From: a virus
Length of the DNA stretch: 56,110 nucleotides
Virus record (IMG/VR): IMGVR_UViG_3300047319_000574
Span: 1-56,110 of that record
Direction: 5' to 3' (one strand)
Each line of letters starts with the position of its first letter. Within the stretch, counting starts at the first letter, position 1. Positions 10,808 through 56,110 of this stretch are shown here, piece after piece. Made by a program: the position numbers and the translations under genes. The notes beneath the pieces were generated by a model, which was given only the letters and a program-made list of their open reading frames with translations, was not told where the DNA came from and did not search any database.

Positions 10808-10813
10808 CCGCTC

Positions 10814-12304: not shown

Positions 12305-12864
12305 TGCCGAACGCCCTCCTGGATCAATCGCAGCCCCTGCCAGACGCCCAGGCGCCCGACCCCTCCCAGGCGCCGCCTGATCCGTCCCAGGCCGCTCCTG
12401 ACCCCTCCCAGGCCCCGCCCTCCCAGGCCGCAGCGACGGACACCGGAGAGCCGGGGACCGATCCGTCGGCGCCAACGCTCGCCAGCGCGGGGATCGACCC
12501 GGAGAAGATCAAGGACGCGATCCACAAGGTCACGGTCGTGGACGCCAAGCTGTCGAAGATCCTCGACACCTCGACAGGAGGGAAGGTCAACCGTGGCGAT
12601 GTGGTCGATGCGGTGATTCAAATCGTCGCCGAGGGCATCATGAGCCCACAAACGGCGGCGGGCTTTCTGGCCGATATCCCGGAAGATCCGAGTGACATCC
12701 GTGAGTGGGTCCAGAAGCACGTCACGGAAGCACAGACGGGTCTGGCGCAGCTGGTGTACGCGATACACGGGTCGGCTGGCGATCAGGAACAGGCGCAGGC
12801 TGGCGATCAGCAGCCGCCGGATGACCAAAGCCAGGGCGATCAGGGCCAGCCGCAGGCGGCATAG
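12301..12864 (+). CDS. Hypothetical protein with DPSQAPP repeats
   Basis: 187 residues, start fixed by ATGA overlap. Residues 13-45 hold tandem DPSQAPP / DPSQAAP units, probably a flexible arm. Residues 63-150 are helical (IDPEKIKDAIHKVTVVDAKL...), and the C-terminus is Gln/Asp/Pro-rich. Low-complexity arms are common in proteins packaged and ejected with DNA. No known family. Confidence 0.75.
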   Translation: MMPNALLDQSQPLPDAQAPDPSQAPPDPSQAAPDPSQAPPSQAAATDTGEPGTDPSAPTLASAGIDPEKIKDAIHKVTVVDAKLSKILDTSTGGKVNRGDVVDAVIQIVAEGIMSPQTAAGFLADIPEDPSDIREWVQKHVTEAQTGLAQLVYAIHGSAGDQEQAQAGDQQPPDDQSQGDQGQPQAA

Positions 12865-12873
12865 GAGGGCAAG

Positions 12874-16676: not shown

Positions 16677-17956
16677 TCGCCTTCCTTCTCCTGCTCTTGC
16701 TGGCCCTCCCCGCCGAGGCAGCCACAACGCTGCTCCCGCCCGGCAAGATGTGCCTCGACGACGCCAACGGGAACCCGCTCACGGGCGGCACGGTCAATTT
16801 CTATGTGCCGAGCACGACGACCCCGAAAACAACGTGGCGCGACGCCAATCAGATTTCCGCCAACACCAACCCGGTGGTGCTCGACAGCGCGGGTTGCGCC
16901 GTCGTCTACGGCGAGGGCGTCTACCGGCAGGTGGTCAAGGATAGTCTAGGGAACCTCGTCTGGGACCAGTTAACCGCTGACACATCAGGCGCTGTCGGCA
17001 GCACACTGCCCTTCTCCAACCCTGGCGGCCGGCTGACACTCCAGAGCGGCGTGCCGATCATGAGCGGCGCCGGGCTCGCGGGCGCCGCGATCGTCTACTA
17101 CACGCCGTACAACGGCAACAACGTCGAGGTCTACAACGGGTCGGTCCTGGTCCCGTACACCTTCGCCGAGATCTTGCTCTCCCTCGACGCCACCAACAGC
17201 CACGTCGGCTACCAGCAGTCTGGGAAAAACTTCGACCTCTACATCGTCGCCGACACGACGGTCGCCCCGACGACGCTGCGGCTGTGCTCGGGGCCGGCGT
17301 GGTCGACTGACACGGTCAGGAGCGGCCCGGTCGACATCACCTACACGACCTACGGGTTCCTCGCCAACTTCAGCACGATCACCTGCCGCTTCGGCACCGG
17401 CGTCAACGACATCCTGTCAATCGCCCCGTGGGAGGGCACCTACGTCGGCACGATTCGAGCCGTGGCCAACGGGCAGACGTCGATGGTGTTGCGGCCGGCG
17501 CAGGCCTCGGGTGGAAATCCACCGCTACTGTATGTATTCAACCAGTACAACCGAGTATCTATGACAGCAACTAACCGGGATAGCGGCGCCCCATATACTT
17601 ACTCAACGTCGGTCTATAGAGTGGCCAGGGGAAGTGCAAACAACGTTATTCAATATGTATACGGTGACATTTCTGATGGGGTTAATATAGTATATGCACA
17701 GACCTATCAGACCGCAGCCACCGCGTTCACCTCGCTATCATTTTGCATCGGAGTAGATACGACTGGATCGTGCTTCGACAGCAATCAGATTTATTACCAG
17801 CCACCAGTTGCGGCAGCTCTAAACGGGGGCGGCGTCTCTTCTCTTGCGTTGAGCGGCTTACTAGGGTTTCACACTATCTATGCATTGGAATGGTCCACCG
17901 CCGTAGCGTCGTTTGACCAGGCCGTGGCGACATTAGCGGCCACGATCAGGATGTAG
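16673..17956 (+). CDS. Tail fibre-like protein with Sec signal peptide
   Basis: 427 residues; ATGA overlap with the previous gene. Residues 1-17 form a clear Sec signal (IAFLLLLLLALPAEA then cleavage before ATT). Residues 18-90 resemble the head-binding start of podoviral fibres: LDDANGNPLTGGTVNFYVPS, TTWRDANQ, GCAVVYGEGVYRQVVKDSLG. Residues ~150-280 are beta-rich, and the tip from ~residue 283 (nt 17520 on) is AT-rich with different codon use, a sign of recent exchange of the receptor-binding end. A signal peptide on a fibre is unusual. Last rightward gene of the late operon. Confidence 0.8.
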   Translation: MIAFLLLLLLALPAEAATTLLPPGKMCLDDANGNPLTGGTVNFYVPSTTTPKTTWRDANQISANTNPVVLDSAGCAVVYGEGVYRQVVKDSLGNLVWDQLTADTSGAVGSTLPFSNPGGRLTLQSGVPIMSGAGLAGAAIVYYTPYNGNNVEVYNGSVLVPYTFAEILLSLDATNSHVGYQQSGKNFDLYIVADTTVAPTTLRLCSGPAWSTDTVRSGPVDITYTTYGFLANFSTITCRFGTGVNDILSIAPWEGTYVGTIRAVANGQTSMVLRPAQASGGNPPLLYVFNQYNRVSMTATNRDSGAPYTYSTSVYRVARGSANNVIQYVYGDISDGVNIVYAQTYQTAATAFTSLSFCIGVDTTGSCFDSNQIYYQPPVAAALNGGGVSSLALSGLLGFHTIYALEWSTAVASFDQAVATLAATIRM

Positions 17957-18346: not shown

Positions 18347-18552
18347 GCTCTCACGATGACCCGCTTGAAGCCGGCGGCGCGAAGGCTAAATTCGAGCGTC
18401 TTGTTTTGAGGCGATAAGGTCTTGCCATTGCGCCACGCGCGTACAGTGCTCGCGGATACTCCGCACGAGCGCTCGATTGCTACGGCAGGCATGCCGTTGA
18501 TGCACTTCAGTACGTCGCCAAGTGTCGGATCTGCCTTGTGTCGTGTGGTCAC
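18343..18552 (-). CDS. Small helix-turn-helix protein
   Basis: 69 residues from a GTG fixed by GTGA overlap. Residues ~24-45 (MPAVAIERSCGVSASTVRAW) read as a helix-turn-helix: helix, SCGVS turn, recognition helix TVRAWRNGKT. Probably a DNA-binding regulator of the XRE/Cro type. It sits near the end of the leftward operon, far from the early promoters, so its target is unclear. Confidence 0.7.
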   Translation of the reverse strand: MTTRHKADPTLGDVLKCINGMPAVAIERSCGVSASTVRAWRNGKTLSPQNKTLEFSLRAAGFKRVIVRA

Positions 18553-19256
18553 TTACATCTCCATTGTTTGCCATTGTAGACCGTGCGCTTGCCGTACCTG
18601 ACGCATAGCGGCTGCGGCTGCCCCTTAGGCGCCGTCGCGGCAGGAGCTGCTGCTGGTGCCGCTGCGGGGGGTGGCTCCGGTCGCGGCGCCGGCGTCGGCA
18701 GCCCATCGACGATCGGCTGCTGCTCCGGTGAAAACACCAGCGGCGGCACCTCGTCGGCGTTGAGGCAGTAAGTGTAGGCCTTGCGGTAGAGGAACCGTCC
18801 CGCCGCGACGTCGACCCAGGGGACGCCGAGCAGCCGCCGCAAGGCCGCCGCGCTGGTCTGGGTGGCGTAGGAGCTGCACCCGTCCATGTCGGCGGCGTGG
18901 GCCGCGAGCGGGAGCATGACCAGGAGGACAAGGGCGCAGACCCTGATCGTCATCTCGTACAAAAACTTCGGCTTGGGACGTTTGCGCCACCAGTCGACGA
19001 TCTCCATCGCGGATGATCCGCTCAGCCAGACCTCGATTGGAGATGGTTGTCCGGTGGTGATCCCCAGGTGTCTGGCGGTCCACGGAGAGCAGAGCTGACG
19101 TGCGCGCTCCCGGCTGACCTCAAAATGCTCTCCTATCTCCCGAAGGAGGAATCCTGCATCCCGCATACGGAGAGCCGCGCAGCGGCGGTCCCAGTCCCGC
19201 TGCTTCATGGCCACGCGCCTCGGCGGGGCCAGCTGCTCCCACAGTGCCGGCCTCAT
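18549..19256 (-). CDS. HTH protein fused in frame to an exported Cys-rich domain
   Basis: 235 residues; start fixed by ATGA overlap at 19256. Residues ~28-62 hold a sigma-70 region-4-like helix-turn-helix (DAGFLLREIGEHFEVSRERA). Around residue 102 begins a textbook signal peptide or membrane helix, MTIRVCALVLLVMLPLAAHA, followed by a domain with four cysteines and a Pro/Ala linker. An internal ATG at 18953 could produce the exported 134-residue part alone, though its ribosome site is weak. The product is either a one-pass membrane regulator or two genes fused in frame by loss of a stop. Confidence 0.65.
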   Translation of the reverse strand: MRPALWEQLAPPRRVAMKQRDWDRRCAALRMRDAGFLLREIGEHFEVSRERARQLCSPWTARHLGITTGQPSPIEVWLSGSSAMEIVDWWRKRPKPKFLYEMTIRVCALVLLVMLPLAAHAADMDGCSSYATQTSAAALRRLLGVPWVDVAAGRFLYRKAYTYCLNADEVPPLVFSPEQQPIVDGLPTPAPRPEPPPAAAPAAAPAATAPKGQPQPLCVRYGKRTVYNGKQWRCK

Positions 19257-41991: not shown

Positions 41992-42723
41992 ATGAAAAGA
42001 ACCCTCCTGGCCCTCGCGGCCGTCCTCATTGCCAGCAGCGCGCTTGCCGCCGGCAACTTCACCGGCCTCCCGGCGGCGACCTCGCCCGGCACCGTCAGCG
42101 TCGGTGCCCCGACCACCGGTGGCGGGCCGATCACTCCCGGCGGCTGCATCCCGATGGACACTGGCAACGTCTCCGGCATCAACCCGGCGACGATGTGTGT
42201 CAGCCCCAGCCAGCTCGACCTGTGGGGCTCGGGTGTGCAGCTCAGCTACTCGACGGCGCAGGTGCCGGGCTCGGTGCCGCTGGCGTCGCTGGGTAACGAC
42301 ACGACCCCGGTGTCGGGGACGATCTACCTTGCCCAACTGATCCTGCCGGTGAATTTTACGATCACCAACATAGCGTGCCTCAACGGTTCGGCGGCGGCGA
42401 CCGACAAATACGTCTACGGGCTCTACAATCAGGCGACCGGGGCGCTGCTCGCCTCGACGGCGCTTGCCGGGGTGACGGCGTCGGGGGCCAACGCCTTCCA
42501 GGCGGTGATCCCGCTGACCGCGCCCTACGCGGCGGCAGCCGGCTCGTATCTCGTGGCGCTGCAAGCCAACGGCACCACCACGAGGTTCCGCACGATCACC
42601 GCAGCGGCCCAGCCGGGCTGGATCGAAGCCTCGCAGACCGGTGTCTTCGGGACGCTGCCGACCCTCTCGCCGGTGCCCTCGACCTTCACGGCCAACGTTG
42701 GGCCGATCTGTTTCGTGAACTAG
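41992..42723 (+). CDS. Secreted beta-sandwich surface protein
   Basis: 243 residues. Clear Sec signal peptide (KRTLLALAAVLIASSALA, cleaved before AGN). After a Gly/Thr-rich head come beta strands: AQLILPVNFTITNIACLNGS, KYVYGLYNQATGALLASTAL, YLVALQANGTTTRFRTITAA, ending GPICFVN. The strand pattern resembles phage structural/decoration sandwiches. The first 18 bases after the start match those of the gene at 42812. Its signal peptide makes a cytoplasm-assembled virion role unclear. Confidence 0.75.
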   Translation: MKRTLLALAAVLIASSALAAGNFTGLPAATSPGTVSVGAPTTGGGPITPGGCIPMDTGNVSGINPATMCVSPSQLDLWGSGVQLSYSTAQVPGSVPLASLGNDTTPVSGTIYLAQLILPVNFTITNIACLNGSAAATDKYVYGLYNQATGALLASTALAGVTASGANAFQAVIPLTAPYAAAAGSYLVALQANGTTTRFRTITAAAQPGWIEASQTGVFGTLPTLSPVPSTFTANVGPICFVN

Positions 42724-42744
42724 GCGCGAGGTTTTCTCCTCCCT

Positions 42745-42792
42745 CCCGCGCTTAGTACTGGGGGTCGGCCACTAGCCGGCCCCCTCCCTCGA
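42745..42792 (+). promoter_or_regulatory. Hairpin between secreted-protein genes
   Basis: GGGGGTCGGC / GCCGGCCCCC with loop CACTA (one U-G pair), about 42760-42784. No U-run follows. Possible transcript stabiliser. Confidence 0.5.
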
Positions 42793-42811
42793 ATTTGAAA
42801 GGAAGCTTCAC

Positions 42812-43315
42812 GTGAAAAGAACCCTCCTGGCAGGCTTCGCCCTGGCCCTGACGGCCATTGCGGCGATCGCCGCCAACAACATGACCTTCTCGACCGGGAC
42901 GACGTTCCTGCCCGGCCCCAGGCTGATCGACGGCAGCGACCTCAACGTCATGGTCGCGGTGGTCAATAAGCTCAACAAGCAAGCCGACGGCAGCGGCCCG
43001 ACCCTGCCGGCGTGCGCGGTGACCGGCGCGACCCCGCAGACCTGCAACGGTGTCTCGGGGACGATCACGACCGGCACGCTAACCACGGCGGCGGTGACCG
43101 ACGCGCCTTACACGATCAACAACTCGTCGGTGACGGCGGCCTCGATAGTGCAATGCACCGTGCAGGCGTATTCGGGCACCTACTTCACCAACGGCATGCC
43201 CGAGATCGTCAGCTGCGTGCCGGGGGCCGGGACGATCATCGCCCACATCGCCAACACGCACGCGACCGTGGCCCTCAACGGCACGGTCAAGGTTGGCTTC
43301 CGGGTGTTCAACTAA
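42812..43315 (+). CDS. Secreted surface protein
   Basis: 167 residues from GTG 42812 (AAAGGAAG upstream). Sec signal KRTLLAGFALALTAIAAIA, cleaved near AAN. The mature part has two Cys pairs (ACAVTGATPQTC; VQCTVQAYSGTYFTNGMPEI then SC) and beta strands ending TVKVGFRVFN. The signal region duplicates that of the gene at 41992. Probably extracytoplasmic. No family recognised. Confidence 0.74.
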   Translation: MKRTLLAGFALALTAIAAIAANNMTFSTGTTFLPGPRLIDGSDLNVMVAVVNKLNKQADGSGPTLPACAVTGATPQTCNGVSGTITTGTLTTAAVTDAPYTINNSSVTAASIVQCTVQAYSGTYFTNGMPEIVSCVPGAGTIIAHIANTHATVALNGTVKVGFRVFN

Positions 43316-43328
43316 GGGGGATATCCCG

Positions 43329-44675
43329 ATGTGGCGGCTGATCATTGTCATTGCGGCCCTGCTTTTAGCTGGGCCGGTTAGTGCGGCGGCGCCGGGGACC
43401 ATCAACCAGTACAACGCCGTCTGCAGTCCTGACTTTCCGCTCCGTTGCGCCAAGCCCGACGTCAACGGCGCGCTGCCGATCGTCGGGTCGTTCTCGGCCA
43501 GCTTCGCCAATTTCACGCCGACCGGATCCGCATCTCTCGCGGTGACTGCGGTGAGCGCGCGGGTGCCGCTGCCCAATGGCGACGTGACGGTGGTCCTGCA
43601 GAACACCGGGACGGCCAATATTTTCTACAAGCTCGGGACGGGGTCGGTGGTTGCCGCCCCGACCGACTACAGCCTGCCCGCCGGCTATCAGATCTCGCTA
43701 TCGATTGCTGGCGCCACCAATGTCGCGGCGATCACCGCCTCCGGGACGGCGACGCTGCAGGTGATCCAGGGCACCGGTACGCCGCAGCTATCCGGCGGTG
43801 GGGGTAGTGGCGGCGGCGGCGGTGGTCCCGTGACGATGGCGTCGGGTGCGGTCGCCAGCGGTGCCTACGCCTCGGGCTCGATAGCCGATGGCGCGATAGT
43901 GACCCTGGGGGCCAAGACCGATGCCAAGAACACGGCAACGGACGCCACCAGCATCACCGCCATGCAGGTGTTCAAGGAAATCTCCGCGATGGAGCAGGCT
44001 CCGGCGGTGCGCGGAGTGACAGCCGCTTCCGGGGCGATAGCCGCCGGGGCGATAGCTTCAGGTGCCGTGGCTGCCGGTGCTTACACGACCGGCGCTCTTG
44101 CGACCGGCTCGGGGGTGGACGGTTGGGACGCGGCCGAGGGGACCAAGGCTGACAGCGCCTGCGGCACGGATAGCGGCACCTGCTCTCTGATCGCGCTTAG
44201 CAAGAAGATCGCGGCCAACATCACGACCTTGGTGTCGTCTTTGCAGGGCACTGGGACGATAGGTTCGGCTCCGCCCTCGACGGGGAGCTTCACGGCGGGC
44301 AGCGGCTCGGGCGCGACCGGCGGTCTTCTGGCCGGCCTCAAGATGTGCGATCTGCACGCCAAGTATGACGCCAGCGACAACGGCTCGATCACGCTGGTGA
44401 CCGGGGTCAGCGGCCGGAAGGTCTACATCTGCGGGTACATCATGGCCGTGGGCGGGACCGCGACCAACCTGAAGCTCCGCGAGGGTTCGGATGCCAACTG
44501 CGTGACCTCGGCGGCGGATCTGACGCCGGCCTATCAACTGACGGCGAACCAGAGCATCGGGGCAAATTCGGCGTTCTGGAACGGCTTGGCGGTCAGCACC
44601 AACGCCTATTTCGTCTGCATCAATGCCAGCGCCGGCAACGCCCATCAGGCCGAGCTTTGGTACACGATCCAATGA
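43329..44675 (+). CDS. Secreted virion-like protein with Gly-rich hinge
   Basis: 448 residues. Sec signal WRLIIVIAALLLAGPVSA. Domain 1 (residues ~20-155, NQYNAVCSPDFPLRCAKPDV to the TLQVIQGTG strand) is a beta sandwich; a Gly-rich hinge (SGGGGSGGGGGG) follows; then Ala/Gly repeat-like sequence (ASGAVASGAYASGSIADGAI), typical of phage surface fibres and decoration proteins; and a C-terminal sandwich with paired Cys. The signal peptide is the odd feature. ATGA overlap with the next gene. Confidence 0.76.
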   Translation: MWRLIIVIAALLLAGPVSAAAPGTINQYNAVCSPDFPLRCAKPDVNGALPIVGSFSASFANFTPTGSASLAVTAVSARVPLPNGDVTVVLQNTGTANIFYKLGTGSVVAAPTDYSLPAGYQISLSIAGATNVAAITASGTATLQVIQGTGTPQLSGGGGSGGGGGGPVTMASGAVASGAYASGSIADGAIVTLGAKTDAKNTATDATSITAMQVFKEISAMEQAPAVRGVTAASGAIAAGAIASGAVAAGAYTTGALATGSGVDGWDAAEGTKADSACGTDSGTCSLIALSKKIAANITTLVSSLQGTGTIGSAPPSTGSFTAGSGSGATGGLLAGLKMCDLHAKYDASDNGSITLVTGVSGRKVYICGYIMAVGGTATNLKLREGSDANCVTSAADLTPAYQLTANQSIGANSAFWNGLAVSTNAYFVCINASAGNAHQAELWYTIQ

Positions 44676-45322
44676 ACCGGCGGCAGTTCCTGAAGCGGGC
44701 GAGCGGGCTCCTGGTCCCGCTGGCGGCCCCAGCGATCATTGGCCGGGCTGCGGCGACCGAGATGTCGCTGACCGGATCGGGGGCGGCCAGTCGCGGCGGC
44801 GGTGCTCTCACTATCACTACGATCCGAAATCAAGCCCTGACCTCCAATAATCTTGGCACCGGAGGATGGTCGCTCCGCATCAAAGTGGTTTTAACTGGAC
44901 CGTCTGGTACTGCTGGGCAAGTCCGCGTGACCTTTGAAGCAGGCAGCGGCGGCGGATCATGGCAGGTTGACCACGCTTCTATTGGAGTAGCTACCTTTAA
45001 TAGCCCCGGAGGTGGCTCCGATACGTTAGCTACGCCAGTGGAGCTACTATTCAGCGGCGCGTCCGGATTTACACTAGGCAATGGCCTAACCCTTGTTTCG
45101 GATTGGGCTACCTTGGGGAGCTTTCTATCGTCAGATGTTCTGTGCGTGATTGCGGATCAACACGCAACCAACGACAATACTAGATATGTGGCCGGACTTA
45201 GTACAAGCGACTGCTATGAGTATTATTTGGCGGCGACCGCTAGTTACGCCACGGCGAGCGGGGCTGGATTTAATTCCGTTGGTGGATCGCAGGCCTGCTT
45301 TAACAAAATCGAGACAAGATGA
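44672..45322 (+). CDS. Tat-exported surface protein
   Basis: 216 residues. Starts NRRQFLKRASGLLVPLAAPA: a twin-arginine motif (RRQFLK) and hydrophobic region, cleaved near GRAAAT. The mature part is beta-rich (GWSLRIKVVLTGPSGTAGQV; QVDHASIGVATFNSPGGGSD; ending in a Cys/Tyr-rich segment). The DNA from ~44815 on is AT-rich compared with flanks. The Tat route implies folding in the cytoplasm before export. ATGA overlaps at both ends. Confidence 0.75.
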   Translation: MNRRQFLKRASGLLVPLAAPAIIGRAAATEMSLTGSGAASRGGGALTITTIRNQALTSNNLGTGGWSLRIKVVLTGPSGTAGQVRVTFEAGSGGGSWQVDHASIGVATFNSPGGGSDTLATPVELLFSGASGFTLGNGLTLVSDWATLGSFLSSDVLCVIADQHATNDNTRYVAGLSTSDCYEYYLAATASYATASGAGFNSVGGSQACFNKIETR

Positions 45323-47028
45323 TGCTCCGCCTTGCCGTCCTGATCCTCGCCATCCTGTCGTCGTTCACGGCCCTTGCCGGCGGTTCGCTGCGGGGTGCCC
45401 TTTCCGGTCCCAACGTCGCGAATCAGACGGCCTATTTCGGCAAGCTGACGCTGAACGGTGCCGGCGGATGGGCCCCGGTCAACACCGGAGCGCCGATCAT
45501 CTCGGCATCGATCACCAGCGGCAATTCGGCCGGCTGCTATCAGGTCGATAGCGGGGGAACCATCTCTGCGAAGAACGGCGCGGGGTGCATCGGGGCACTG
45601 CCCGGCGTCACGCTCGGGCTGTCCTACGACGGCGGGGCGGCCACCGCGACGATCACCATCAACACGACGACGGACAATTACGGCAATAGCCTAACCAACG
45701 CCTATTCGATCAAGGACAGTTCCGAACTGTCGGCACTGCTGATCGGGCTCGGCGATGCCGTGATCAGCGGGAAGGACATTTTCTACCGCTACAACGGCGG
45801 CACGCCCTACACGCCGCCCAATCTCTACGGCTCGCAGGACAGCTATCTCGATATGGTGCATCACCAGAGCCACGACCATTCCAATATGGCGATCATCACC
45901 AATTGGCGGTTTGACTCCACGGGGGCCGGCGTCAAGACCGGGAACGTCTACTTCGGCTACCTGAAGTTCACGCGGCCTTATGACGGCTCGAACATGGTCG
46001 AGTTTCTCGATGTCCCCGTCGAGCACGTGATCTTCGACCACGATATTTTTGACGGACAGTTGGCACCGTATCCCACCGGCAACTCTCTCTCGGTGGGGCC
46101 GCTCCTGATCGACCAGTCTCATGCCCCGGTGAATGACCTGACGATCTCCAATTCCCTCTTCACGAACTTCGTCTTTGCCATGGGGGTGAACGGCAGCAAC
46201 ATCACGATCACGGGGAACGAGTGCGCGTATCTATGGGGCGATTGCATCGACCTCGGCAGCCCCAACGACGGGACGAACGGCAGCAACATTCTGATCCAGA
46301 ATAATTCCGACCACGACATGGCCGGGAACAACGGCTATCACCCGGATTTCCTGCAAGCCTTCAACGACGTTTACACGGGCGACATCACCGACGTTCAGGT
46401 GTTGTGCAACACCCACTGGGAAGGGCCGGCGGCGCTCAATCAAGGGGCCGGCTGGGGTGATCAGTTCATCATTTTGCAAAAGCTCGGGCCGGTGCCCTCG
46501 GTCACGCCGGGTGCCTATCGCCGCTGGACAATCGACGGCAACGTGTCGGAGGGCACAGCACAGTACGGCATCGGTCTGGAACAGCCGACCTACGACAGCA
46601 TCGTTCGCTACAACACGATGGCCCGGATGTGGCCCAACCCAGCGATTACCCTGGGCAATTCCGGCAATCCCGATCTTCAGGACGGGCTGCTTTATTTCGC
46701 GCAATCGATCAGCGGTAATTTCGCCCAAGGCAATGCGGAGGAGGGATTTGCCGACGTCAACGGCAACGTGACGATAACCGGGCCGGCCAACTACAACAGC
46801 CTCAGTCGCCTGTCTCTCACGTCCTACACGAACGCCTTCAACAACGGTGGCGGCAGTTTTTTTCAGGCGACCTCTCAGGCCTCGCTGATCGCCAATTACC
46901 GCATGAAACCGAACGGCCCTCTCGACCTCAACAACAACGGGGTCTGGTCAACGGCCGACGCGGGGGCGGTTGGCACGACGGCGACCAATGGGCGGTGCGA
47001 CTTCACGACCGGCCAGATCAATCCGTGA
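45319..47028 (+). CDS. Secreted beta-helix protein (possible depolymerase or spike)
   Basis: 569 residues. Sec signal (LRLAVLILAILSSFTALA, cleavage before GGS). Residues ~110-520 read as a right-handed parallel beta-helix: repeated N-ladder turns such as ISNSLFTNFVFAMGVNGSNI, ITGNECAYLWGDCIDLGS and VRYNTMARMWPNPAITLGNS, with Asp/His clusters (HHQSHDHSNMAIITN; IFDHDIFDGQL). Beta-helix proteins of this type cut or bind polysaccharides in tail spikes. Secreted form would suit capsule digestion or surface remodelling. Its stop overlaps the terminase GTG. Confidence 0.77.
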   Translation: MMLRLAVLILAILSSFTALAGGSLRGALSGPNVANQTAYFGKLTLNGAGGWAPVNTGAPIISASITSGNSAGCYQVDSGGTISAKNGAGCIGALPGVTLGLSYDGGAATATITINTTTDNYGNSLTNAYSIKDSSELSALLIGLGDAVISGKDIFYRYNGGTPYTPPNLYGSQDSYLDMVHHQSHDHSNMAIITNWRFDSTGAGVKTGNVYFGYLKFTRPYDGSNMVEFLDVPVEHVIFDHDIFDGQLAPYPTGNSLSVGPLLIDQSHAPVNDLTISNSLFTNFVFAMGVNGSNITITGNECAYLWGDCIDLGSPNDGTNGSNILIQNNSDHDMAGNNGYHPDFLQAFNDVYTGDITDVQVLCNTHWEGPAALNQGAGWGDQFIILQKLGPVPSVTPGAYRRWTIDGNVSEGTAQYGIGLEQPTYDSIVRYNTMARMWPNPAITLGNSGNPDLQDGLLYFAQSISGNFAQGNAEEGFADVNGNVTITGPANYNSLSRLSLTSYTNAFNNGGGSFFQATSQASLIANYRMKPNGPLDLNNNGVWSTADAGAVGTTATNGRCDFTTGQINP

Positions 47029-48608
47029 ACGACGTCCTCACCAAGCTCAACTCCATCCTCGCCGGGCTCGCGCCCGCTGAGCGGGCGGAGCTGACCGAGC
47101 TGGCACGCAGCCGGGCCAAGCGATCGATCTGGATCCCCAACCCCGGCCGTCAGATGCAGGCCTACCTCACCCATGCCGATTGGCTGCTCTACGGTGGCGC
47201 CGCCGGCGGCGGTAAGACCGACTTGCTCCTGGGGACGGCGCTCACGGCCCACGAGAACTCGGTGATCTTCCGGCGCCAGGGCGTCGACCTTAGAGGCACC
47301 GAGGACCGCCTGATCGAGATCCTGGGCTCCAGGAACGGCTACAACGCGACCGACATGAAGCTCAAGCACTCCCGAGGCATCCTGGAGTTCGGCGCGCTTG
47401 AGAAGCCGCACAGCGAGCTGACGTGGCAAGGCCGCCCGCACGACCTGATCGGCTTCGACGAGGGCGCCCAGCTCTCGCTCGACAAGGTCTTGTACGTCAC
47501 CGGCTGGCTGCGCTCGGTCACCGTCGGCATCCGCAAGCGGGTGATCATCGCCACCAATCCGCCGACCGGGGGCGAGGGCGAGTGGCTGATGGAGTGGTTC
47601 GCCCCCTGGCTCGACCCGACCTTCCCCGACCCGGCCGAGCACGGCGAGCTGCGCTGGGCGATCGTCGTCGACAGGAAGATCCGGTGGGTCCACGGGCCCG
47701 GCGTCACCGAGATCGGCGGGCATCGGTACACCCACGAATCCTATACCTTCATCCTCAGCCTCCTGGAGGACAACCCCTTCCTGTCGCAGACCGGGTATCG
47801 GGCGAGAATCGAGAACCTGCCCGAGCCGCTGCGATCCCAGCTCCTCCACGGCGACTTCCTCGCCGGGCGCGAGGACCATGCGTGGCAGACGATTCCGACC
47901 GAGTGGGTGCGCGCTGCGCAGAAGCGCTGGTCGCGCGCCGGCGAAAAGAGCCGCACGATGATCGCGCTCGCGATGGACGTCGCGATGGGCGGTCCGGACG
48001 TGACCACGATCGCGGCCCTGCACGAGGATAATTGGTTCGCGCCGGTCATCACCCGCCAGGGCGTCACGACCAGCGACCCGGTGCAGCACGCCGCGCTCCT
48101 CATCCTCTCACGGCGCGACGAGGCCGACATCTCGGTCGACGCTACCGGCGGCTGGGGCTCAGGCATCCTCTCGAACCTCAAGCACCAGCACGGCATCGGC
48201 GTGCACGGCATCGTGTTCAGCCGCAAGAGCCACCTCAAGGACAAGACCGGCAAGCTCGGCTTCCGCAATCTCCGCGCCGAGATGTACTGGCGCTTCCGCG
48301 AGGCCCTGTCGCCCGACAGCGACCTCGACGTGATGCTGCCGCCATCGCCCAGGCTGCTCGCCCAGCTGACCACGCCGCGCTATGAGGTGCATGGCACCGA
48401 CATCCTGATCGAGGACAAGGCGGCGATCAGGAGGCGCACCGGCGGCTCGACCGACGAGGCCGACGCGGTGGTGATGGCGTGGCATCGCCGCGGCGCGGCG
48501 GCGCGCTTGCAGCAGTTCACGGTGCCGGGGCTGCCGCCGATCGAGGACTACCAGCCGCAGTACGAGGGCGAATCGCCCTGGCGCAACGATCGATGGATGC
48601 TGCAATGA
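47025..48608 (+). CDS. terL: Terminase large subunit
   Basis: 527 residues, GTG 47025 in a GTGA overlap. Motor: Walker A GGAAGGGKT (~residue 54), Walker B LIGFDEGAQ (~142), coupling motif ATNPP (~176). Nuclease domain: IALAMDVAMGGPDVTTIAAL (first Asp), ADISVDATGGWGSGIL (second Asp), TDEADAVVMAW (third). This is the packaging ATPase and headful-type nuclease of P22-like phages. It precedes the portal by an ATGA overlap. Upstream gene order (secreted proteins directly before terL) is unusual. Confidence 0.93.
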   Translation: MNDVLTKLNSILAGLAPAERAELTELARSRAKRSIWIPNPGRQMQAYLTHADWLLYGGAAGGGKTDLLLGTALTAHENSVIFRRQGVDLRGTEDRLIEILGSRNGYNATDMKLKHSRGILEFGALEKPHSELTWQGRPHDLIGFDEGAQLSLDKVLYVTGWLRSVTVGIRKRVIIATNPPTGGEGEWLMEWFAPWLDPTFPDPAEHGELRWAIVVDRKIRWVHGPGVTEIGGHRYTHESYTFILSLLEDNPFLSQTGYRARIENLPEPLRSQLLHGDFLAGREDHAWQTIPTEWVRAAQKRWSRAGEKSRTMIALAMDVAMGGPDVTTIAALHEDNWFAPVITRQGVTTSDPVQHAALLILSRRDEADISVDATGGWGSGILSNLKHQHGIGVHGIVFSRKSHLKDKTGKLGFRNLRAEMYWRFREALSPDSDLDVMLPPSPRLLAQLTTPRYEVHGTDILIEDKAAIRRRTGGSTDEADAVVMAWHRRGAAARLQQFTVPGLPPIEDYQPQYEGESPWRNDRWMLQ

Positions 48609-50830
48609 CGCCGGAGGAAACCGCCCTTGAGGTCATGTCTGGTGACGAGCAGATCATCGCCGTCGCCAAGGCGCGCTGGCAGCGCTGCCAGGATTTCGAG
48701 GGCACCGCCCAGCAACGCTGGCTCGCGGACCAGAAATTCCACTGGGCCGATCCGGACAATGGCTGGCAGTGGCCGGGCTATTTGTGGTCGACGCGCCGCG
48801 ACGATCCAGCCGGGTACAAGCCCCGCCTGACCGTCAACAAAATCAGGCAGCACAATTTACAAATCACCAACGACGCCAAACAAAACAAGCCCGGCATCAA
48901 AATCTCGCCGGTCGGCGACGACGCGACCTTCCAGGCCGCCAAAATTTGGATGGGGCTGGTCCGCCACATCGAGCGGGTGAGCAAGGCCTCGGCGGTTTAC
49001 TCGACGGCCTCTGACTTCCAGGTCCAGTCGGGGCTCGGCTACATCCGGCTCGACTGGGCCTATATTCCCGGCACGTTCGACCGGGAGATCTACATCCGGC
49101 GGGTCAGGAACCCGCTCAACATCTTCCTCGATCCCGATAAAAACGAGATTGACGGAAGTGATGCCCGCTTCGGCTTCGTCTTCGACGACACGCCGCGCAC
49201 CGAGTTCCTGGCCGAGCACCCGGAGATGAAGGGCAAGGTCGGCGAGGCCGCGCTCGGCAACAGCCACGGCTGGATCGACCAGGACCACGTCCGGCAGGCG
49301 GAGTACTTCTACAAGCAGCTGAAGAAGGACCGTTTGGTCCTCCTCAAAAACCCCGACGCCGACGGTGCCGCCGACGCTCTGATCATGGCGAAGTGGAGCA
49401 AGATTCCTCCCGCCATCAGGCGTCAGATCGAGCCCGGCGACATCGTCAAGCAGCGCGAATTTATGGACGAGGAGATGCGCTGGGTGAAGATCGCCGGCAA
49501 CGAGATCATCGATCGCAAGCGCTGGCCGGGCAAGTACGTGCCGCTGGTGCCGGTGGTCGGCGAGGAGGTGGTGATCGACGGCATCCTCGACCGCAAAGGC
49601 CACACGCGCGGCATGAAGGACGCGCAGCGGATGTACAATTTCTGGACATCCAATGCGGTCGAGCAGGTGGCTTTGCAGACCAAAGCGAAATGGTTCATCC
49701 CGGTGGGCAGCACCGAGTCGCTCGACGCCTATTTCAAGACCATCAACACCTCGAACTACCCGTATATCCCGATCAACGCCTTCGACTCGGAGGGCCGCCA
49801 GCTGCCGCCGCCGGTGCCGATCGATCCGCCCGAGATGGCCCAGGGCTACATCCAGGGCATGATGGTCGCGAGGGAGGAGCTGATGATGGTCAGCGGCCAG
49901 CGCGAGGAGAATTTCGGCCAGCCGTCCAACGCGATCAGCGCGGTCGCGATCAACGAGCGCCAGCGCAAGGGCGACACCTCGACCTACCACTACATCGACG
50001 GGCTGGCGACGGCGATCCGACAGGTCGGCAACATCATCCTCGACCTCGCGCCGTACATCTACAACACCAAGCAGGTGCGCCAGATCCTGGCCGAGGACGG
50101 CTCCGAGCAGCTGATCCGGATCGACCCGAACAGCGACGTCGCCTACGCCGAGGAGAAGGACGGCGACGAAACGTGGGTGGTCTTCAATCCGCGCGTCGGG
50201 CGGTACTGGGTCGATTCCGACATCGGCCCGAGCTACGCCACCCGCCGCCAGGAGGCCTGGGACGCTTTCATTCAGTTGACGACGCAGAACCAGCAGCTGA
50301 CCAACCTGATCGGCGACCTGATGTTCAGGAACGCCGACTTCCCCGGCGCCGACGAGATCGCCGATCGGCTCAAACGGATGGTGCCGCCCCAGGCGACCGG
50401 CGAGGGCCCCGACGCCGCTCTCCAGGCCGCCCAGGCGCAGAACCAATCGCTCCAGTCCCTGCTCACCGACATGACCGACAAGCTCGCCAAGCAGGAGCTG
50501 CAAATCAAAGACCACGCCGAGCGGCGCCGGATCGAGCAGCAGGACGCCGACACGCGCCGGCTCAAGGAGGTCGGCAACGCGGAATCTGATCTTTCCGAGG
50601 AGACGCTGCGCCCGATCCTGGAGAAGCTCCTCAAGGACATGGGTGTCGAGCAGCGGGTCGAGCCGAGCGACGCCGGCGGCGAGCCCGAGGGCCCCGAGCA
50701 GGAGCAGGACTGGCAGAACGATCCGGTGGTGCCGCCGGTCGACGGCGCGCAGCTGGCGCCGGACGGGCAGCATTACCTCCCGGATGAGGCGCGGCCGGGC
50801 AAGTATTTGAGAGTCGAGCCGGGTGGATGA
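48605..50830 (+). CDS. Portal protein, P22-like
   Basis: 741 residues against 725 for P22 gp1. N-terminal RWLADQKFHWADPDNGWQWP, RLTVNKIRQHNLQITNDAKQ, then FQVQSGLGYIRLDWAYIPGT and NPLNIFLDPDKNEIDGSDAR, the conserved crown/wing segments of the P22 portal family, followed by IDRKRWPGKYVPLVPVVGEE and the long stem/barrel helix region (LQNQSLQSLLTDMTDKLAKQ-like). The dodecamer forms the DNA gate. Overlaps terminase (ATGA) and the holin gene (8 bases). Confidence 0.92.
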   Translation: MTPEETALEVMSGDEQIIAVAKARWQRCQDFEGTAQQRWLADQKFHWADPDNGWQWPGYLWSTRRDDPAGYKPRLTVNKIRQHNLQITNDAKQNKPGIKISPVGDDATFQAAKIWMGLVRHIERVSKASAVYSTASDFQVQSGLGYIRLDWAYIPGTFDREIYIRRVRNPLNIFLDPDKNEIDGSDARFGFVFDDTPRTEFLAEHPEMKGKVGEAALGNSHGWIDQDHVRQAEYFYKQLKKDRLVLLKNPDADGAADALIMAKWSKIPPAIRRQIEPGDIVKQREFMDEEMRWVKIAGNEIIDRKRWPGKYVPLVPVVGEEVVIDGILDRKGHTRGMKDAQRMYNFWTSNAVEQVALQTKAKWFIPVGSTESLDAYFKTINTSNYPYIPINAFDSEGRQLPPPVPIDPPEMAQGYIQGMMVAREELMMVSGQREENFGQPSNAISAVAINERQRKGDTSTYHYIDGLATAIRQVGNIILDLAPYIYNTKQVRQILAEDGSEQLIRIDPNSDVAYAEEKDGDETWVVFNPRVGRYWVDSDIGPSYATRRQEAWDAFIQLTTQNQQLTNLIGDLMFRNADFPGADEIADRLKRMVPPQATGEGPDAALQAAQAQNQSLQSLLTDMTDKLAKQELQIKDHAERRRIEQQDADTRRLKEVGNAESDLSEETLRPILEKLLKDMGVEQRVEPSDAGGEPEGPEQEQDWQNDPVVPPVDGAQLAPDGQHYLPDEARPGKYLRVEPGG

Positions 50831-51044
50831 AAAGCCGCCGCCATTCGACTACCGAGGCCTTGCGGCTGTCATCCTGGCCGCCTCGATTGGCCTCACGCTG
50901 GTCATCGGGACGGCTGCGGTTGGCTTCGCTGGCCGAGCCATGTCGGAAGTCGGCGGACAGGCAATGATCGCGATAGGTGGGGCGATTGTCGGAGCGCTCG
51001 CCGGCTACGTGACGGGAAAGACATCGCATGGCAATGGCGGCTAA
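50823..51044 (+). CDS. Putative holin
   Basis: 73 residues from GTG 50823. Two hydrophobic helices (LAAVILAASIGLTLVIGTAA; IAIGGAIVGALAGYVTG) with a short loop and charged ends. Size, two membrane spans and position immediately before the endolysin gene are typical of holins that time lysis. No sequence family is recognised. Confidence 0.75.
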   Translation: MDEKPPPFDYRGLAAVILAASIGLTLVIGTAAVGFAGRAMSEVGGQAMIAIGGAIVGALAGYVTGKTSHGNGG

Positions 51045-51642
51045 GTTCAATCGCGAGATCTATTTCGAGCACGTCCGCGCGGAGCTGTTCAGTGGCGCGA
51101 TGACCCAGGAGCAGGTCGATGGCCAGGGCGTGATCCTCGGTCTCTGGGAGGGCCAGTACACCGGCACGCCGATGAAGGACGTGCGCTGGCTGGCCTACAT
51201 CCTGGCGACCGCTTACCACGAGACGGCGCACCGGATGTGGCCGATCGAGGAGTACGGCAAGGGTGAGGGGCGCGATTACGGCAAGCCAGATCCAGAGACG
51301 GGCCAGACCTACTACGGCCGGGGCTTCGTCCAGCTAACCCACAAGGAGAACTATGACCGGGCCAGCGCTGCCCTGGCGCTGATCGATGACCGTGATCTGG
51401 TCTTGCATCCGACCCTGGCGCTCGACAGTCTTGTGGCCGCTCGGGTGATGTTCAGGGGCATGGCCGAGGGGTGGTTCACTGGCGAGCGCCTGGGCAGCTA
51501 TTTCAACGCGGAAGTCGACGATCCGATCGGCGCCAGGACGATCATCAACGGTAACGACCAGGACACCCTGATCGCTGGCTATCACGCGGAGTTTCTGATC
51601 GCTCTTGAGGCAGCGGCTGATGGCCAACGCGCTCGTCCGTAA
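51028..51642 (+). CDS. Endolysin, glycoside hydrolase family 19-like
   Basis: 204 residues. WLAYILATAYHETAHRMWPI contains the catalytic-type Glu (HETA), then YYGRGFVQLTHKENYDRASA and RVMFRGMAEGWFTGERLGSY, the GH19/lysozyme-like pattern used by phages to cut peptidoglycan. No signal peptide, so release needs the holin. Start at 51028 overlaps the holin end; 51034 is an alternative. Its end overlaps the polyvalent gene by 23 bases. Confidence 0.88.
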   Translation: MAMAAKFNREIYFEHVRAELFSGAMTQEQVDGQGVILGLWEGQYTGTPMKDVRWLAYILATAYHETAHRMWPIEEYGKGEGRDYGKPDPETGQTYYGRGFVQLTHKENYDRASAALALIDDRDLVLHPTLALDSLVAARVMFRGMAEGWFTGERLGSYFNAEVDDPIGARTIINGNDQDTLIAGYHAEFLIALEAAADGQRARP

Positions 51643-54600
51643 CGCCGTCCCCGACTACACCGAGGCTTCCGACCCCGCCGCGCAGGACTGGGGCGACACC
51701 GGTTCGCCGTTGTGGAACGACCGCGCCAACTGGCGCCTGCGCCTGCAGATGGCGCTCGCCGACAAGGAGCGCGAGGCCCGGCTGGCGCGCGGCGAAGGCT
51801 CGACCGAGGATCTGCTCGCGCATATCGGGCTCCTGCCGGTCCACATGATGCAGGCGGTCACACAGATCCCGGCATCGATCGCACGCTCGGCCGAGTATGC
51901 GTCGGGGGCTGACGCCGGCAACTACGGCCAGGGCACGATGGTCAGCGACACCGATGTGCCCGACCCCTACCGCAAGCGTTTCGTAGAGCAGCAACTCGGC
52001 CTCCAGAAGGAGGCCGACACGGCTATCGAGGCGGCCGGCAATGTGTCCATGCTGAGTGGCGGCTCGGTCGCTCCGGTGACCACTAACCGGCTGGTGCTCG
52101 CTGGCAAGGCCTTCGGCCGGGAGCCGGTCCTGCCGGAGTGGGCGCGGCTGCCGGCTGATCGGCCTTTTGCCAGGGCGCCGGTCGCGGCTGCGATGGATCT
52201 GGCCAAGGCTTCGCTACCAGCCAGCACCCCCCTTCCTGAGGGTTCGCTGGATAATATTATTCGCCGTTTGGGTTATGATCCGACGTCGATGAGTTTCGAT
52301 GAAAAGTCTCAGATCATTAGGGAGAGAAGCGGTGCCAGACCACAAGAAGCCCCTGTCGGAGGAGGAGAAGGACGAGCTGCGGAGCTACGGCCACCTGGAG
52401 GAGGACTGGGATCCCAAGAAGGAGGGAGAGGCGGAGAGCCGCGCGTTCAGCAGGCACAGGCGGAAGCCGATCTATCGGCCGCTGGAGAAGCTCCCCTCGT
52501 AGGTCTGCCCAACAAGCCGATCCCGCTGGCCGACAGCAGCGTCCACGTCCCTGGCCCGAGCGCCACGGCCCGCAAGGCGGCGCGCGACTACATGGCCGAG
52601 GCCGGGCTGCCCTACGAGCCGCCGACCCAGTTCAGCAGGGTCGACAAGGAGAAGGCCGGCAAGATCGCCCAGGCTTTCGAGGACATGAAGCACGAGCCGG
52701 ATAACCCGGCTGTGCAGCGGTCCTACGGCGCCCTGATCGACGAGACGATGGCGCAGTGGGAGAAGATCAAGGCGACCGGCCTCAAGGTCGAGTTCAACCC
52801 GCCGGGCACCGACCCTTACGGGTCGAACCCGCGCATGGCGATGCAGGACATCCGCCGCAACAATCACCTCTGGGTATTTCCGACGTCGGAGGGTTTTGGA
52901 AGCGGCGCCGAGGCCGCTGCGGCCATGCGCGAGAACCCGATGCTACGCCCGACCAACGAGGTGATCAGCGGCCAGCCGGCCGTCGCCAACGACATTTTCC
53001 GGATCGTTCACGACTATTTCGGGCACTACAAGGAGGGCGTCGGCTTCCGCGCCGAGGGCGAGGAGAACGCCTGGAAGAGCCACTCGGCCATGTACTCCGA
53101 GGAGGCCAAGCCGGCGATGACATCGGAGACGCGCGGTCAGAACTCCTGGGTCAACTTCGGCCCGCACGGTGCCAAGAACCGCTCTGCCTCCGGCGGCGAT
53201 ACGCACTACGCCCCACAGAAGATCGGGCTGATGCCGGAGTGGACGTTGCACGCCGGCGGCAAGGGCGGCAGGACCGCAGCGGCCATCCTCCTGGCTGGCG
53301 AAAAGCGCGGCGGGTTCTACAGCAAGGCCCTCCAGGCCGCCGAGGACAAGCTGCCGGAACAGTTCACGCCCGCCCAGGCGATCGCCACGCTCAAGCAGGC
53401 GGGGCTCAAGGCGGAGGAGCTGAGCCCGATCGAGGCCCACCTCCAGAGCGAGGCCGACGCCCGCGCCAAGCCGGGTTCGAACCTGCCGCCGAAGATGAGC
53501 AAGGCCGACCTGCTCGACTACATCCAGGAGGGCATTCCCGACATCAAGGAGCGCTGGTATGGCGGCAACCGCCAGAACTGGAGCGTCAGTCTCGATGACG
53601 ACGGCTTCTACCGGATCGTGGATGAGGAGGGGGAGCCCGCACCAGGACAAAGCGATCTCTTCGCCAGTCATACCGAGGCTGAGCGGCACCTGGAAAGCCT
53701 GGGTGGCAACGAACAGCCGGCCCGCTTCACCAAGTACTCGCTGGAGGGCGGCGAGAACAAGCGGAACCTGCTCTTGCAGACGCCCTTGGGCGAGCCCGAC
53801 AGGTGGGTGGTGCTCGACAGCGAGGGCTACATGGGCCCTGAGCAGTACGCGACGAAGGAGGAGGCCCTCCAGGCGTCGCGCAAGGTTGGCGGATCGGTCA
53901 GTCAGGTTCCCGGCACGGGTGGCGGCCACTACTACGGCCCGCACTGGGACAAGGAGGGCGAGGAGGACACCTTCGCTCACGCCCGGCTCGACGATCGCGA
54001 GGTGGTCGTTCCCGGTTACGTCGTCGAGAACGCCAAGTCGGGCAAGAGAGGGCCGGTGTTCCACTCGTTCGAGGAGGCCCAGAATTACCGGGAAGGGCTC
54101 GCGCATAAGCAGGACACGATCGTCGTCAAGACGAAGAACACGGTGAAGGCCCAGCACACCGACGAGGTGCAGTCCGACCTGCACCAGGAGGGCCGCAAGA
54201 AGGGCTACAACACGCCCGAGGCCCATGCCGAGTTTGCGCGGCTGAAGGAGGCTGAGGGCAAGGCCTACGACGACTTCTACAACGAGAAGGACCGCATCGA
54301 TAAGGAGGTGTTCGGCGACGACTATCGCAGCGCTCTCGTTGCCGGCAGGGACAAGACCTCGGCCGCCGGTCGGAAGCTCGCCAAGGCGATCGCCGAAGAT
54401 CCCGCCTACAAGGCCGCCAAGGCCCGCTGGGAGGATGCGGTGGACGACGTCGCGGCGGGCGACCCCAAGGACAAGCCCCCAGCAGCCCCCTTCCAGAAGA
54501 GCGAGGCGTGGACCGGGCTGGTGTGGAAGAAGCTGATCCAGGAGGCCGTCGCCAACGGCAAGGACTGGGTCACCTGGACGACCGGCCAGATGCAGAACGA

Positions 54601-56110
54601 TCGCTACCGGATGAGCAACCAGATCAGCTCGCTGCACTATGAGCCGGTGACTAGCGGGACTAGGACGAAGTATGTTCTCAAGGCTAGGACGTCCGATCGC
54701 GGCGATGCCGTTGCCATCAATCACGGTGAGCCGATTCGCGCGAAGGATTTGGGGGATTTCGTTGGACAGGAGTTGGCCGGCAGGATCGTCAAGGGCGAGG
54801 GCGAGGCGACCGAAAGCGGCAAAGTGATCTCCGATCTTGACGTCAACGTCGGCGGTAAGGGGATGGAGGGCTACTACGACGACATGACGCCGAAGATTCT
54901 GAAGAAGAATTTCGGCAAGTATGGTGTGAAAGAGATCGAGAAGGCCGAGCCGGTCGGGGTGAAGCCGACGGTCGATAGACAGGCGCAGGAGGCGGCCAGG
55001 GCAAAATACGGGGACGCTATGGGCGGCGCCGTGAAGGAGCGCGATGCCGGCCTCGCCGCTGCCGCCGCGCGCCTGGAGCGCGATCCCGAGGTCGCCCAGG
55101 CGATCTGGCGCAAGTACAACGAGGCCCAGCACGATGCGCTGGCCACATACAAGGCCGAGGTCGCCGCCGCATCCGAGCCGGCTGTGCTCCACGCCATGTA
55201 CGTCACGCCGGCCCTCAAGGAGGCCGCGCAGAACGAGGGCTTCACGCTCTACGCCGGGGGCAACAAGAAGGCTGCCATGTTCGGGCTCCTGCGCCCCGCC
55301 GAGGAGGGCAACAAGCTCGGCTTCGCGCCCGACCTGCGGGTGAGGGTGCCGCGCCCTGGCGCCTTACCCGACAAGCCGCTGATCACGCAGACCACGACCA
55401 ACAAGAACGCTCCCGCCCAGCTCCAGAACATCGACCTCATCCTGGCCGGCTTCCCGAAGGCGACCGACACGCCCAAGGACTGGTCGAAGATGATGGCGCA
55501 CGCCTTCGCCTCCGACGAGGTGCCGGTGCCGCCCTACGCCTTCATCCGCGACGTCAACAGCGACGGTGCGGCGGCCAAGATCAGGCTGCTGACGCCTGGG
55601 CAGGTCGCCGACGCGGATGGCGGCTTCGCCTTCGCTCGCGAGATGCGCGACGCCTATGTCAATGGCGAGCTGAGCCCGGCCGACACTGGCAAGCTTTTCA
55701 TGTGGTCGTTCCTGTCGCGGGGCGTGTCGCCCTACACGCAGGAGAGCCTCTTCATCGATGCGTTCGAGGGCGCCGACCACTGGATTCAGAAAGCCGCCGA
55801 CGGCGACTTCACCAAGGCCGATCTGCCGGCCTACAAGGAATGGGCGGCCACGACGGCGCCGAAGGGCAGTGGCCAGCCGGGCTCCGGCTCCATGCACAAC
55901 CTCAACGCCTTCGGAGGCACCTTCCTCCTGAAGATGGCTCGCCGGGGTGCGGACGGCATCTCCAATCTCCAGCGCCTGCACGACATGCTCTCCGATCCGA
56001 ACATGACCGGCGCGAAGATCCGGCGTGAGTTCCTGAAGTTCGGCGAGGGCGTCGGCATCGACAACAAGGTCGTGTCGTTCACGATGCTCGTCGCCGGGCA
56101 CCCCGACGTC
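51620..56110 (+). CDS. Polyvalent protein (continues at 1-922)
   Basis: The frame opens at ATG 51620 and stays open to the contig end and through 922 after circularisation, ~1761 residues. Recognised blocks: residues ~460-520 (IFRIVHDYFGHYKEGVGFRA, GEENAWKSHSAMYSEEA, TRGQNSWVNFGPHG), and ~845-990 (TDEVQSDLHQEGRKKGY; WVTWTTGQMQNDRYRMSNQI), both domains of the 'polyvalent' phage proteins that are injected with DNA and may act on host defences, and the C-terminal block described for 1-922. Between them are charged helical linkers. I see no papain, ADP-ribosyltransferase or metallopeptidase site. It follows lysis genes, a usual place for such giant proteins. Confidence 0.88.
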   Translation, partial: MANALVRNAVPDYTEASDPAAQDWGDTGSPLWNDRANWRLRLQMALADKEREARLARGEGSTEDLLAHIGLLPVHMMQAVTQIPASIARSAEYASGADAGNYGQGTMVSDTDVPDPYRKRFVEQQLGLQKEADTAIEAAGNVSMLSGGSVAPVTTNRLVLAGKAFGREPVLPEWARLPADRPFARAPVAAAMDLAKASLPASTPLPEGSLDNIIRRLGYDPTSMSFDEKSQIIRERSGARPQEAPVGGGEGRAAELRPPGGGLGSQEGGRGGEPRVQQAQAEADLSAAGEAPLVGLPNKPIPLADSSVHVPGPSATARKAARDYMAEAGLPYEPPTQFSRVDKEKAGKIAQAFEDMKHEPDNPAVQRSYGALIDETMAQWEKIKATGLKVEFNPPGTDPYGSNPRMAMQDIRRNNHLWVFPTSEGFGSGAEAAAAMRENPMLRPTNEVISGQPAVANDIFRIVHDYFGHYKEGVGFRAEGEENAWKSHSAMYSEEAKPAMTSETRGQNSWVNFGPHGAKNRSASGGDTHYAPQKIGLMPEWTLHAGGKGGRTAAAILLAGEKRGGFYSKALQAAEDKLPEQFTPAQAIATLKQAGLKAEELSPIEAHLQSEADARAKPGSNLPPKMSKADLLDYIQEGIPDIKERWYGGNRQNWSVSLDDDGFYRIVDEEGEPAPGQSDLFASHTEAERHLESLGGNEQPARFTKYSLEGGENKRNLLLQTPLGEPDRWVVLDSEGYMGPEQYATKEEALQASRKVGGSVSQVPGTGGGHYYGPHWDKEGEEDTFAHARLDDREVVVPGYVVENAKSGKRGPVFHSFEEAQNYREGLAHKQDTIVVKTKNTVKAQHTDEVQSDLHQEGRKKGYNTPEAHAEFARLKEAEGKAYDDFYNEKDRIDKEVFGDDYRSALVAGRDKTSAAGRKLAKAIAEDPAYKAAKARWEDAVDDVAAGDPKDKPPAAPFQKSEAWTGLVWKKLIQEAVANGKDWVTWTTGQMQNDRYRMSNQISSLHYEPVTSGTRTKYVLKARTSDRGDAVAINHGEPIRAKDLGDFVGQELAGRIVKGEGEATESGKVISDLDVNVGGKGMEGYYDDMTPKILKKNFGKYGVKEIEKAEPVGVKPTVDRQAQEAARAKYGDAMGGAVKERDAGLAAAAARLERDPEVAQAIWRKYNEAQHDALATYKAEVAAASEPAVLHAMYVTPALKEAAQNEGFTLYAGGNKKAAMFGLLRPAEEGNKLGFAPDLRVRVPRPGALPDKPLITQTTTNKNAPAQLQNIDLILAGFPKATDTPKDWSKMMAHAFASDEVPVPPYAFIRDVNSDGAAAKIRLLTPGQVADADGGFAFAREMRDAYVNGELSPADTGKLFMWSFLSRGVSPYTQESLFIDAFEGADHWIQKAADGDFTKADLPAYKEWAATTAPKGSGQPGSGSMHNLNAFGGTFLLKMARRGADGISNLQRLHDMLSDPNMTGAKIRREFLKFGEGVGIDNKVVSFTMLVAGHPDV
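52332..52502 (+). CDS. Nested 56-codon gene in an alternative frame
   Basis: GTG 52332 with GGGAG 8 bases upstream; 56 residues, VPDHKKPLSEEEKDELRSYG, HLEEDWDPKKEGEAESRAFS, RHRRKPIYRPLEKLPS. It lies wholly inside the polyvalent gene in another frame. Third-position G/C is near total in this frame and low in the polyvalent frame here, where the peptide is Gly/Pro/Glu low complexity. That pattern marks this frame as the long-selected one over this stretch. An ATG at 52299 is a less likely start. Confidence 0.6.
   Translation: MPDHKKPLSEEEKDELRSYGHLEEDWDPKKEGEAESRAFSRHRRKPIYRPLEKLPS
55984..56110. repeat. 127-bp exact terminal repeat, right copy
   Basis: Identical to 1-127; see the left copy. 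Position 55984 is equivalent to position 1, so the genome is 55,983 bp. Confidence 0.95.

Follow-up and report, generated by a model that had tools for sequence, protein, structure and literature searches.

The genome of a P22-like podophage encodes six proteins predicted to be made with secretory leaders: the products of five successive genes lying directly upstream of the gene for the terminase large subunit (TerL), and a tailspike encoded far from them. Export of these six proteins is well supported by their sequences. The best explanation, which we hold to be probable though by no means certain, is that virion spikes and fibres leave the cytoplasm by export, undergo oxidation in the periplasm and join DNA-filled heads at lysis. 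With slightly less assurance, on the favourable side of even, we propose that a group of tailed phages completes its particles no earlier than lysis and switches appendages between cytoplasmic and exported forms, with leaders, and partly cysteine pairs as well, gained or lost together. Sequence comparison establishes that the leaders are translatable, that the same modules occur without leaders in relatives, that cysteine pairs accompany the leader and that the spike anchor is conserved.

A leader-bearing gene cassette beside terminase

The 56,110-bp record analysed here (the window) is a whole virus genome with a 127-bp direct terminal repeat; because positions 1-127 are identical to 55984-56110, it is complete. 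Judged by its late genes, all on the plus strand, the phage is a P22-like podophage. These genes include a P22-type coat protein (4323-5540), a head-tail adaptor-like gene starting at 6317 and a gp10-type head-closure gene starting at 7035 (together 6317-9359), ejection-type virion genes (9722-16676) that abut the tailspike gene at their 3' end, TerL (47025-48608; profile matches and a GTGA start overlap) and a P22-like portal protein (48599-50830; PF16510, E=5e-142). A GH19-type endolysin gene at 51028 has no obvious leader and adjoins a gene for a short membrane protein that looks holin-like by eye (together 50823-51639, plus strand). Among named phages, the nearest TerL is that of Acidovorax AP1, followed by the Bordetella BPP-1 group; since identity to named phages is only about 44%, we place the phage in an uncultured group.

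Two further plus-strand genes were noted. A 71-residue protein at 40673-40888 matches PF24729, the Acb2/Tad1 hairpin domain, above cut-off (E=5.5e-8) and is possibly an anti-defence sponge of signalling nucleotides. An open reading frame of about 1,500 residues (51605-56110) spans the terminal repeat and runs off the record end; phrog_3170, of unknown function, covers its residues 314-514.

The earlier note had described five successive genes for exported proteins, four with Sec-type leaders and one with a Tat-type leader, and all five open reading frames were found with leaders as it described. P1 (41992-42723, 243 residues) begins MKRTLLALAAVLIASSALA with a predicted cut before A; P2 (42812-43315, 167 residues, GTG start) begins MKRTLLAGFALALTAIAAIAA; P3 (43329-44675, 448 residues) begins MWRLIIVIAALLLAGPVSA, again with a predicted cut before A; P4 (44672-45322, 216 residues) begins MNRRQFLKRASGLLVPLAAPAIIGRAAA; and P5 (45319-47028, 569 residues) begins MMLRLAVLILAILSSFTALA, with a predicted cut before G. 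All five lie on the plus strand. P1, P2, P3 and P5 match the Sec/SPI pattern of a charged n-region, a hydrophobic h-region and an AxA-like cut site, as graded by a home-made n/h/c-region score in which 4 or more counts as strong. P4 (NRRQFLKRASG) has the Tat pattern, read from the sequence, of a twin-arginine RRxFLK motif, a moderately hydrophobic core and AxA. For P1, this assignment is joined by a full-length homologue without a signal, L059:6446.

The reading starts are constrained by the gene overlaps. P4 starts in an ATGA overlap with the P3 stop, P5 in an ATGA overlap with the P4 stop, and the P5 stop overlaps the GTGA start of TerL at 47025; these overlaps place the starts immediately before the leaders, and the last of them is why we count the cassette among the late genes. 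Purine-rich sequences resembling ribosome-binding sites precede 42812 and 43329, and the sole support for the start at 41992 is a weak AAAGG.

Of the 83 called genes, those scoring at least 4 are the four Sec-type members of the cassette and no others. A six-frame scan of all in-frame starts adds an antisense open reading frame (50773, minus strand) and a small minus-strand one at 18953. The latter start, within the open reading frame at 18549-19256, would give a 134-residue protein (18953 to 18549, minus strand) with a strong Sec-type leader, MTIRVCALVLLVMLPLAAHA, cut before A, outside the late genes. In relatives, scores of at least 4 are reached by 16 of 499 genes (3%) downstream of TerL and by 47 of 313 genes in the six-gene stretch upstream of it. 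Against a 3% background, five leaders in a row are not due to chance.

The mature parts had been described as phage surface domains, which remote similarity bears out for some of the proteins and not for all five. P1 combines the N-module AGxFxGLP..PxDT....G..P[QA]T with a beta-sandwich-like C-domain, P2 joins the N-module FLPGPRLIDGxDLN to a C-domain weakly similar to the major cement protein of phage A4, and P3 carries the module GTINQYNAVCSPDFPLRC and a Gly/Ala-rich middle. Searches of P1-P5 against Pfam and PHROGs gave nothing usable, P3 and P5 had no match among deposited phages, no informative homologue was found for P4 or P5, and no family match backed the 'beta-helix' label given to P5.

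The tailspike carries a sixth leader

Secretory leaders are not confined to the cassette. The plus-strand gene at 16673-17956, in the position of P22 gp9 after the ejection-type genes and with an ATGA overlap with the gene before it, encodes a tailspike of 427 residues that begins with the signal-like leader MIAFLLLLLLALPAEA, has a predicted cut before A and continues ATTLLPPGKMCLDDANGNPLTGGTVNFYVPSTTTPKTTW. The earlier note had overlooked this sixth member, and so had our home-made score, because the n-region lacks K/R; homologues in L216 and L217 have leaders with the usual charge. Behind the leader lies a head-binding domain of the P22 type that contains Cys27 and Cys75 (E=0.0018 against PDB 7eeq; E=5e-6 for the family profile against 9vyg); the genome encodes no other domain of this kind. 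For the trimeric beta-helix receptor-binding body expected of a P22-type tailspike, an AlphaFold model of the spike gave a mean pLDDT of 47. Tailspike homologues were found in 16 of the 19 relatives searched, and those in relatives with a signal-bearing cassette carry leaders. A P22-type tailspike is expected to be made without a secretory leader, an expectation contradicted in this genome, where the leader-bearing spike gene sits in the late region of a phage whose coat, portal and gp10 are P22-like. The adaptor-like (6317) and gp10-type (7035) proteins are its likely docking site.

The head-binding domain of the spike is under strong purifying selection. Comparing the window with L214 or L216, omega is 0.15-0.17 for the spike anchor and 0.16 for TerL, and 0.43-0.51 for the spike body. 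The short leader gives 0.48-0.81, or 1.6 with L217, while keeping its leader character. An anchor as constrained as TerL, unlike a relic, means that the exported spike very probably docks on virions.

The same modules occur with and without leaders

The earlier note had proposed a search for the same arrangement in related phages, and 20 further TerL-linked loci were scored with leader-bearing genes upstream of TerL; two of these are near-identical and one, L048, has a single such gene. In most other TerL-linked loci, no leader-bearing genes were found upstream of TerL. On the TerL tree, three or more switches of leader state are required, and the leader-bearing L048 and the leader-less L059 come out as sister loci with support of 100/99. 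Across tens of diverged relatives, the leaders hold their charge, hydrophobic core and AxA.

Modules of the cassette were recognised in relatives as AGxFxGxP...PADT....G..PQT (P1), FxPGxRLIDGxDLN (P2) and QYNAVCDPxFPTRC (P3), with N-modules joined to exchangeable C-termini. Leader-less forms of these modules adjoin TerL in L059, L094, L160, L164 and L172, and several of them head large fibre-type proteins. Leader-less P1-type proteins start M-A/S-G-W or M-A-A-G, close to the predicted cut site of their leader-bearing counterparts. In the phage represented by L059 and L219, neither the tailspike nor the P1-type protein has the signal or the corresponding cysteines, and each begins at the residue predicted to be the first of the mature protein. 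Among the leader-less genes beside TerL in L059 is a homologue (L059:7100) of Ralstonia phage GP4 fibre I (gp80, PF23140, PDB 8jou), which marks the locus as one of fibre genes; the window cassette differs in having no gp80 homologue, PF23140 having no match in P1-P5 and being found only in L059, where the gp80-type proteins are leader-less. In addition, the leader-bearing L006:7344 matches the tail protein phrog_5939.

Some relatives show mixed arrangements. At L002:888-3748, whose TerL is 91% identical, four or five leader-less genes are inserted between leader-bearing P2 and P3; by its sequence, one phage can thus mix putatively exported and unexported appendage genes. At L147:118-3708, with a different TerL, a leader-bearing P3-type gene (HVAVCNPDFPDRC) is accompanied by more leader-bearing genes, with a leader-less P1-type gene nearby.

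P1-type modules are present in tens of uncultured phages, though a search of 50,697 deposited phage records gave no match for them, and neither the P1-type nor the P2-type proteins of relatives matched any deposited phage. Related TerL sequences were found on only five genome contigs, none with the cassette. When 385 genomes from a single class were searched for the spike domain, three weak instances turned up without pointing to a named host, and plasmids gave only weak Mycetohabitans matches. Leader-bearing spike anchors also occur in L241 (IMGVR_UViG_2918999278, 60.5 kb, with an isolate-like identifier) and L360 (a betaproteobacterial MAG), either of which might lead to a test system that can be cultured.

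Cysteines accompany the leaders

Within this genome, the six exported proteins contain 1.59 Cys per 100 residues versus 0.26 for eleven unexported virion-type proteins (TerL included). The mature parts of P1, P2, P3 and P5 contain 4, 4, 8 and 6 Cys, respectively, and P4 has 3. In the P1 family, 43 of the 45 exported members that contain Cys have an even number (p=3e-11). The leader-less homologue L059:6446 has no Cys: by eye, V and A stand opposite C129 and C240 of the window P1, and neither C52 nor C69 has a counterpart. The spike of the same phage (L219) has neither the leader nor either of the anchor cysteines (C to F, C to E). Such pairing of cysteines with leaders would be expected of proteins that fold oxidatively in the periplasm. 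A separate observation concerns the gp10-type protein (7035-9359, plus strand), which has 10 Cys though leader-less and is extended at its C-terminus by about 350 residues that look LamG/concanavalin-like by eye.

Spike anchors were also gathered by a pattern scan blind to leader and cysteine; the 113 listed are a sample, with leader status set by inspection and L339 left out. Forty of the 113 carry a leader. With the second cysteine as the marker of the pair, it is present in 20 of the 40 leader-bearing and 0 of the 73 leader-less anchors listed; a cruder automatic count requiring both cysteines gave 18/42 versus 0/74 among the anchors listed (Fisher p=6e-10). Because half of the leader-bearing anchors listed lack the pair, oxidation is not the sole reason for export. 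The anchor tree, built on a short domain and poorly resolved, needs about four cysteine changes; no pairing on it sets cysteine change against leader, and independent events are too few for significance.

Likeness to known systems

The window spike shares with P22-type tailspikes (PDB 7eeq and 9vyg; Xanthomonas PBR31, Shewanella X14) a homologous anchor, a gp9-like position and P22-like structural genes, and differs from them in its secretory leader and Cys pair; all seven homologues examined in deposited phages lack a leader. For P1 and P2, the best solved match is the capsid cement of cyanophage A4 (PDB 9jwb), both matches being sub-threshold, with E=0.037 for the P2 C-domain profile and, for the low-confidence AlphaFold model of P1, E=0.003 and TM 0.34/0.39. 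With low-confidence models for both spike and P1, we take fold matches as leads, and the possible link of P1 and P2 to A4 cement is offered as a lead only.

Llp, Cor and SieA are phage-encoded exclusion or receptor-blocking proteins exported to the host envelope. They are lipoproteins or membrane proteins without a virion anchor, whereas the window proteins have fibre and spike modules and no lipobox. Lipoprotein exclusion factors of the Llp/Cor type were ruled out, as no Cys stands at the predicted +1 position of any of the six cut sites, cassette and tailspike together.

No description of a tailed phage that builds its particles with exported spikes or fibres is known to us, and our literature search found no report of exported virion spikes in tailed phages. 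Signal peptides have been merely listed for rumen phages (PMC5723332), and DsbA has been tied to phage Loki via capsule control (PMC10249906). The proteins themselves vary on spikes and fibres already known; their export route is, to our knowledge and in the literature searched, undescribed for tailed phages.

Alternative explanations

The earlier note had left two readings of export, surface display or an undescribed assembly path. We favour the second, given modules shared with leader-less fibre-type proteins and a leader-bearing, constrained tailspike; display, receptor masking and capsule digestion gained no positive support. The main rival is nevertheless that the proteins act as free envelope or extracellular factors, masking receptors, digesting capsule or slime or serving as decoys, with anchors that are relics or oligomerisation units. 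It would explain the leaders, which are real on the same evidence, a constant N-module followed by a varying C-terminus would equally fit surface targets that change, and leader-less homologues of the spike anchor are found on annotated depolymerases. We consider it unlikely, however, in view of a head-binding domain constrained like TerL, a genome with no second, leader-less spike and six cut sites without a lipobox. Considerably less probable is that the leaders are uncleaved signal-anchors tethering appendages to the inner membrane, where virions would be decorated at a site on the membrane or from its cytoplasmic face. An AxA motif close to a hydrophobic N-terminus is no proof of cleavage, but leader-less homologues begin at the predicted mature N-terminus, the leader drifts yet keeps its character as cleaved leaders do, and the Cys enrichment points to the side of the membrane where oxidation takes place.

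Prophages commonly carry exported cargo, and the cassette might consist of cargo or lysogenic-conversion genes for host-surface proteins lying beside packaging genes by chance. We rejected such a cargo cluster, giving it a very small chance, on its translational coupling to TerL; its place upstream of TerL is moreover conserved in diverged phages, its modules are common to fibre-type genes at the same locus, and the tailspike bears a leader too. The same very small chance attaches to an artefact in which the leaders are untranslated or unrecognised and all the proteins are cytoplasmic virion parts, as their homologues outside this group, ordinary leader-less fibres and spikes, might suggest. 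A start-codon artefact was rejected because ATGA and GTGA overlaps with upstream stops fix the starts; conservation of charge, hydrophobic core and AxA, and the even Cys counts that accompany leaders, also speak against it.

A proposed export-then-dock route

In the proposed route of export followed by docking, the cassette genes and the distant tailspike would encode host-contacting appendages (a spike, fibres and possibly capsid decorations) made as secretory precursors. Late in infection, P1, P2, P3, P5 and the spike would pass through Sec and P4 through Tat, signal peptidase would trim them to the mature N-terminus, and disulfides would form in the periplasm, where the appendages would be kept apart from heads filling in the cytoplasm. 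Once lysis proteins broke the envelope, periplasmic appendages and cytoplasmic heads would mix, anchor domains would dock on the finished tail or head, and the infectious particle would be complete at or after lysis. We infer virion membership from anchor homology, and attachment would presumably fall at lysis. In classical work, free spike completes P22 heads in vitro, which makes docking outside the cytoplasm chemically reasonable. Possible gains are disulfide-hardened spikes and the keeping of sticky spikes off packaging heads.

For annotation, such leaders should not be trimmed, nor such genes relabelled as host or cargo, and any isolate of the group would make the route directly testable by proteomics. 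Tailed-phage assembly is, in the textbook view, wholly cytoplasmic. If the proposed route is true, exported, disulfide-bonded spikes and fibres would constitute a second assembly route for tailed phages, in which sticky spikes are held away from heads until lysis and infectivity would rely on the host's Sec and Tat and perhaps on its Dsb.
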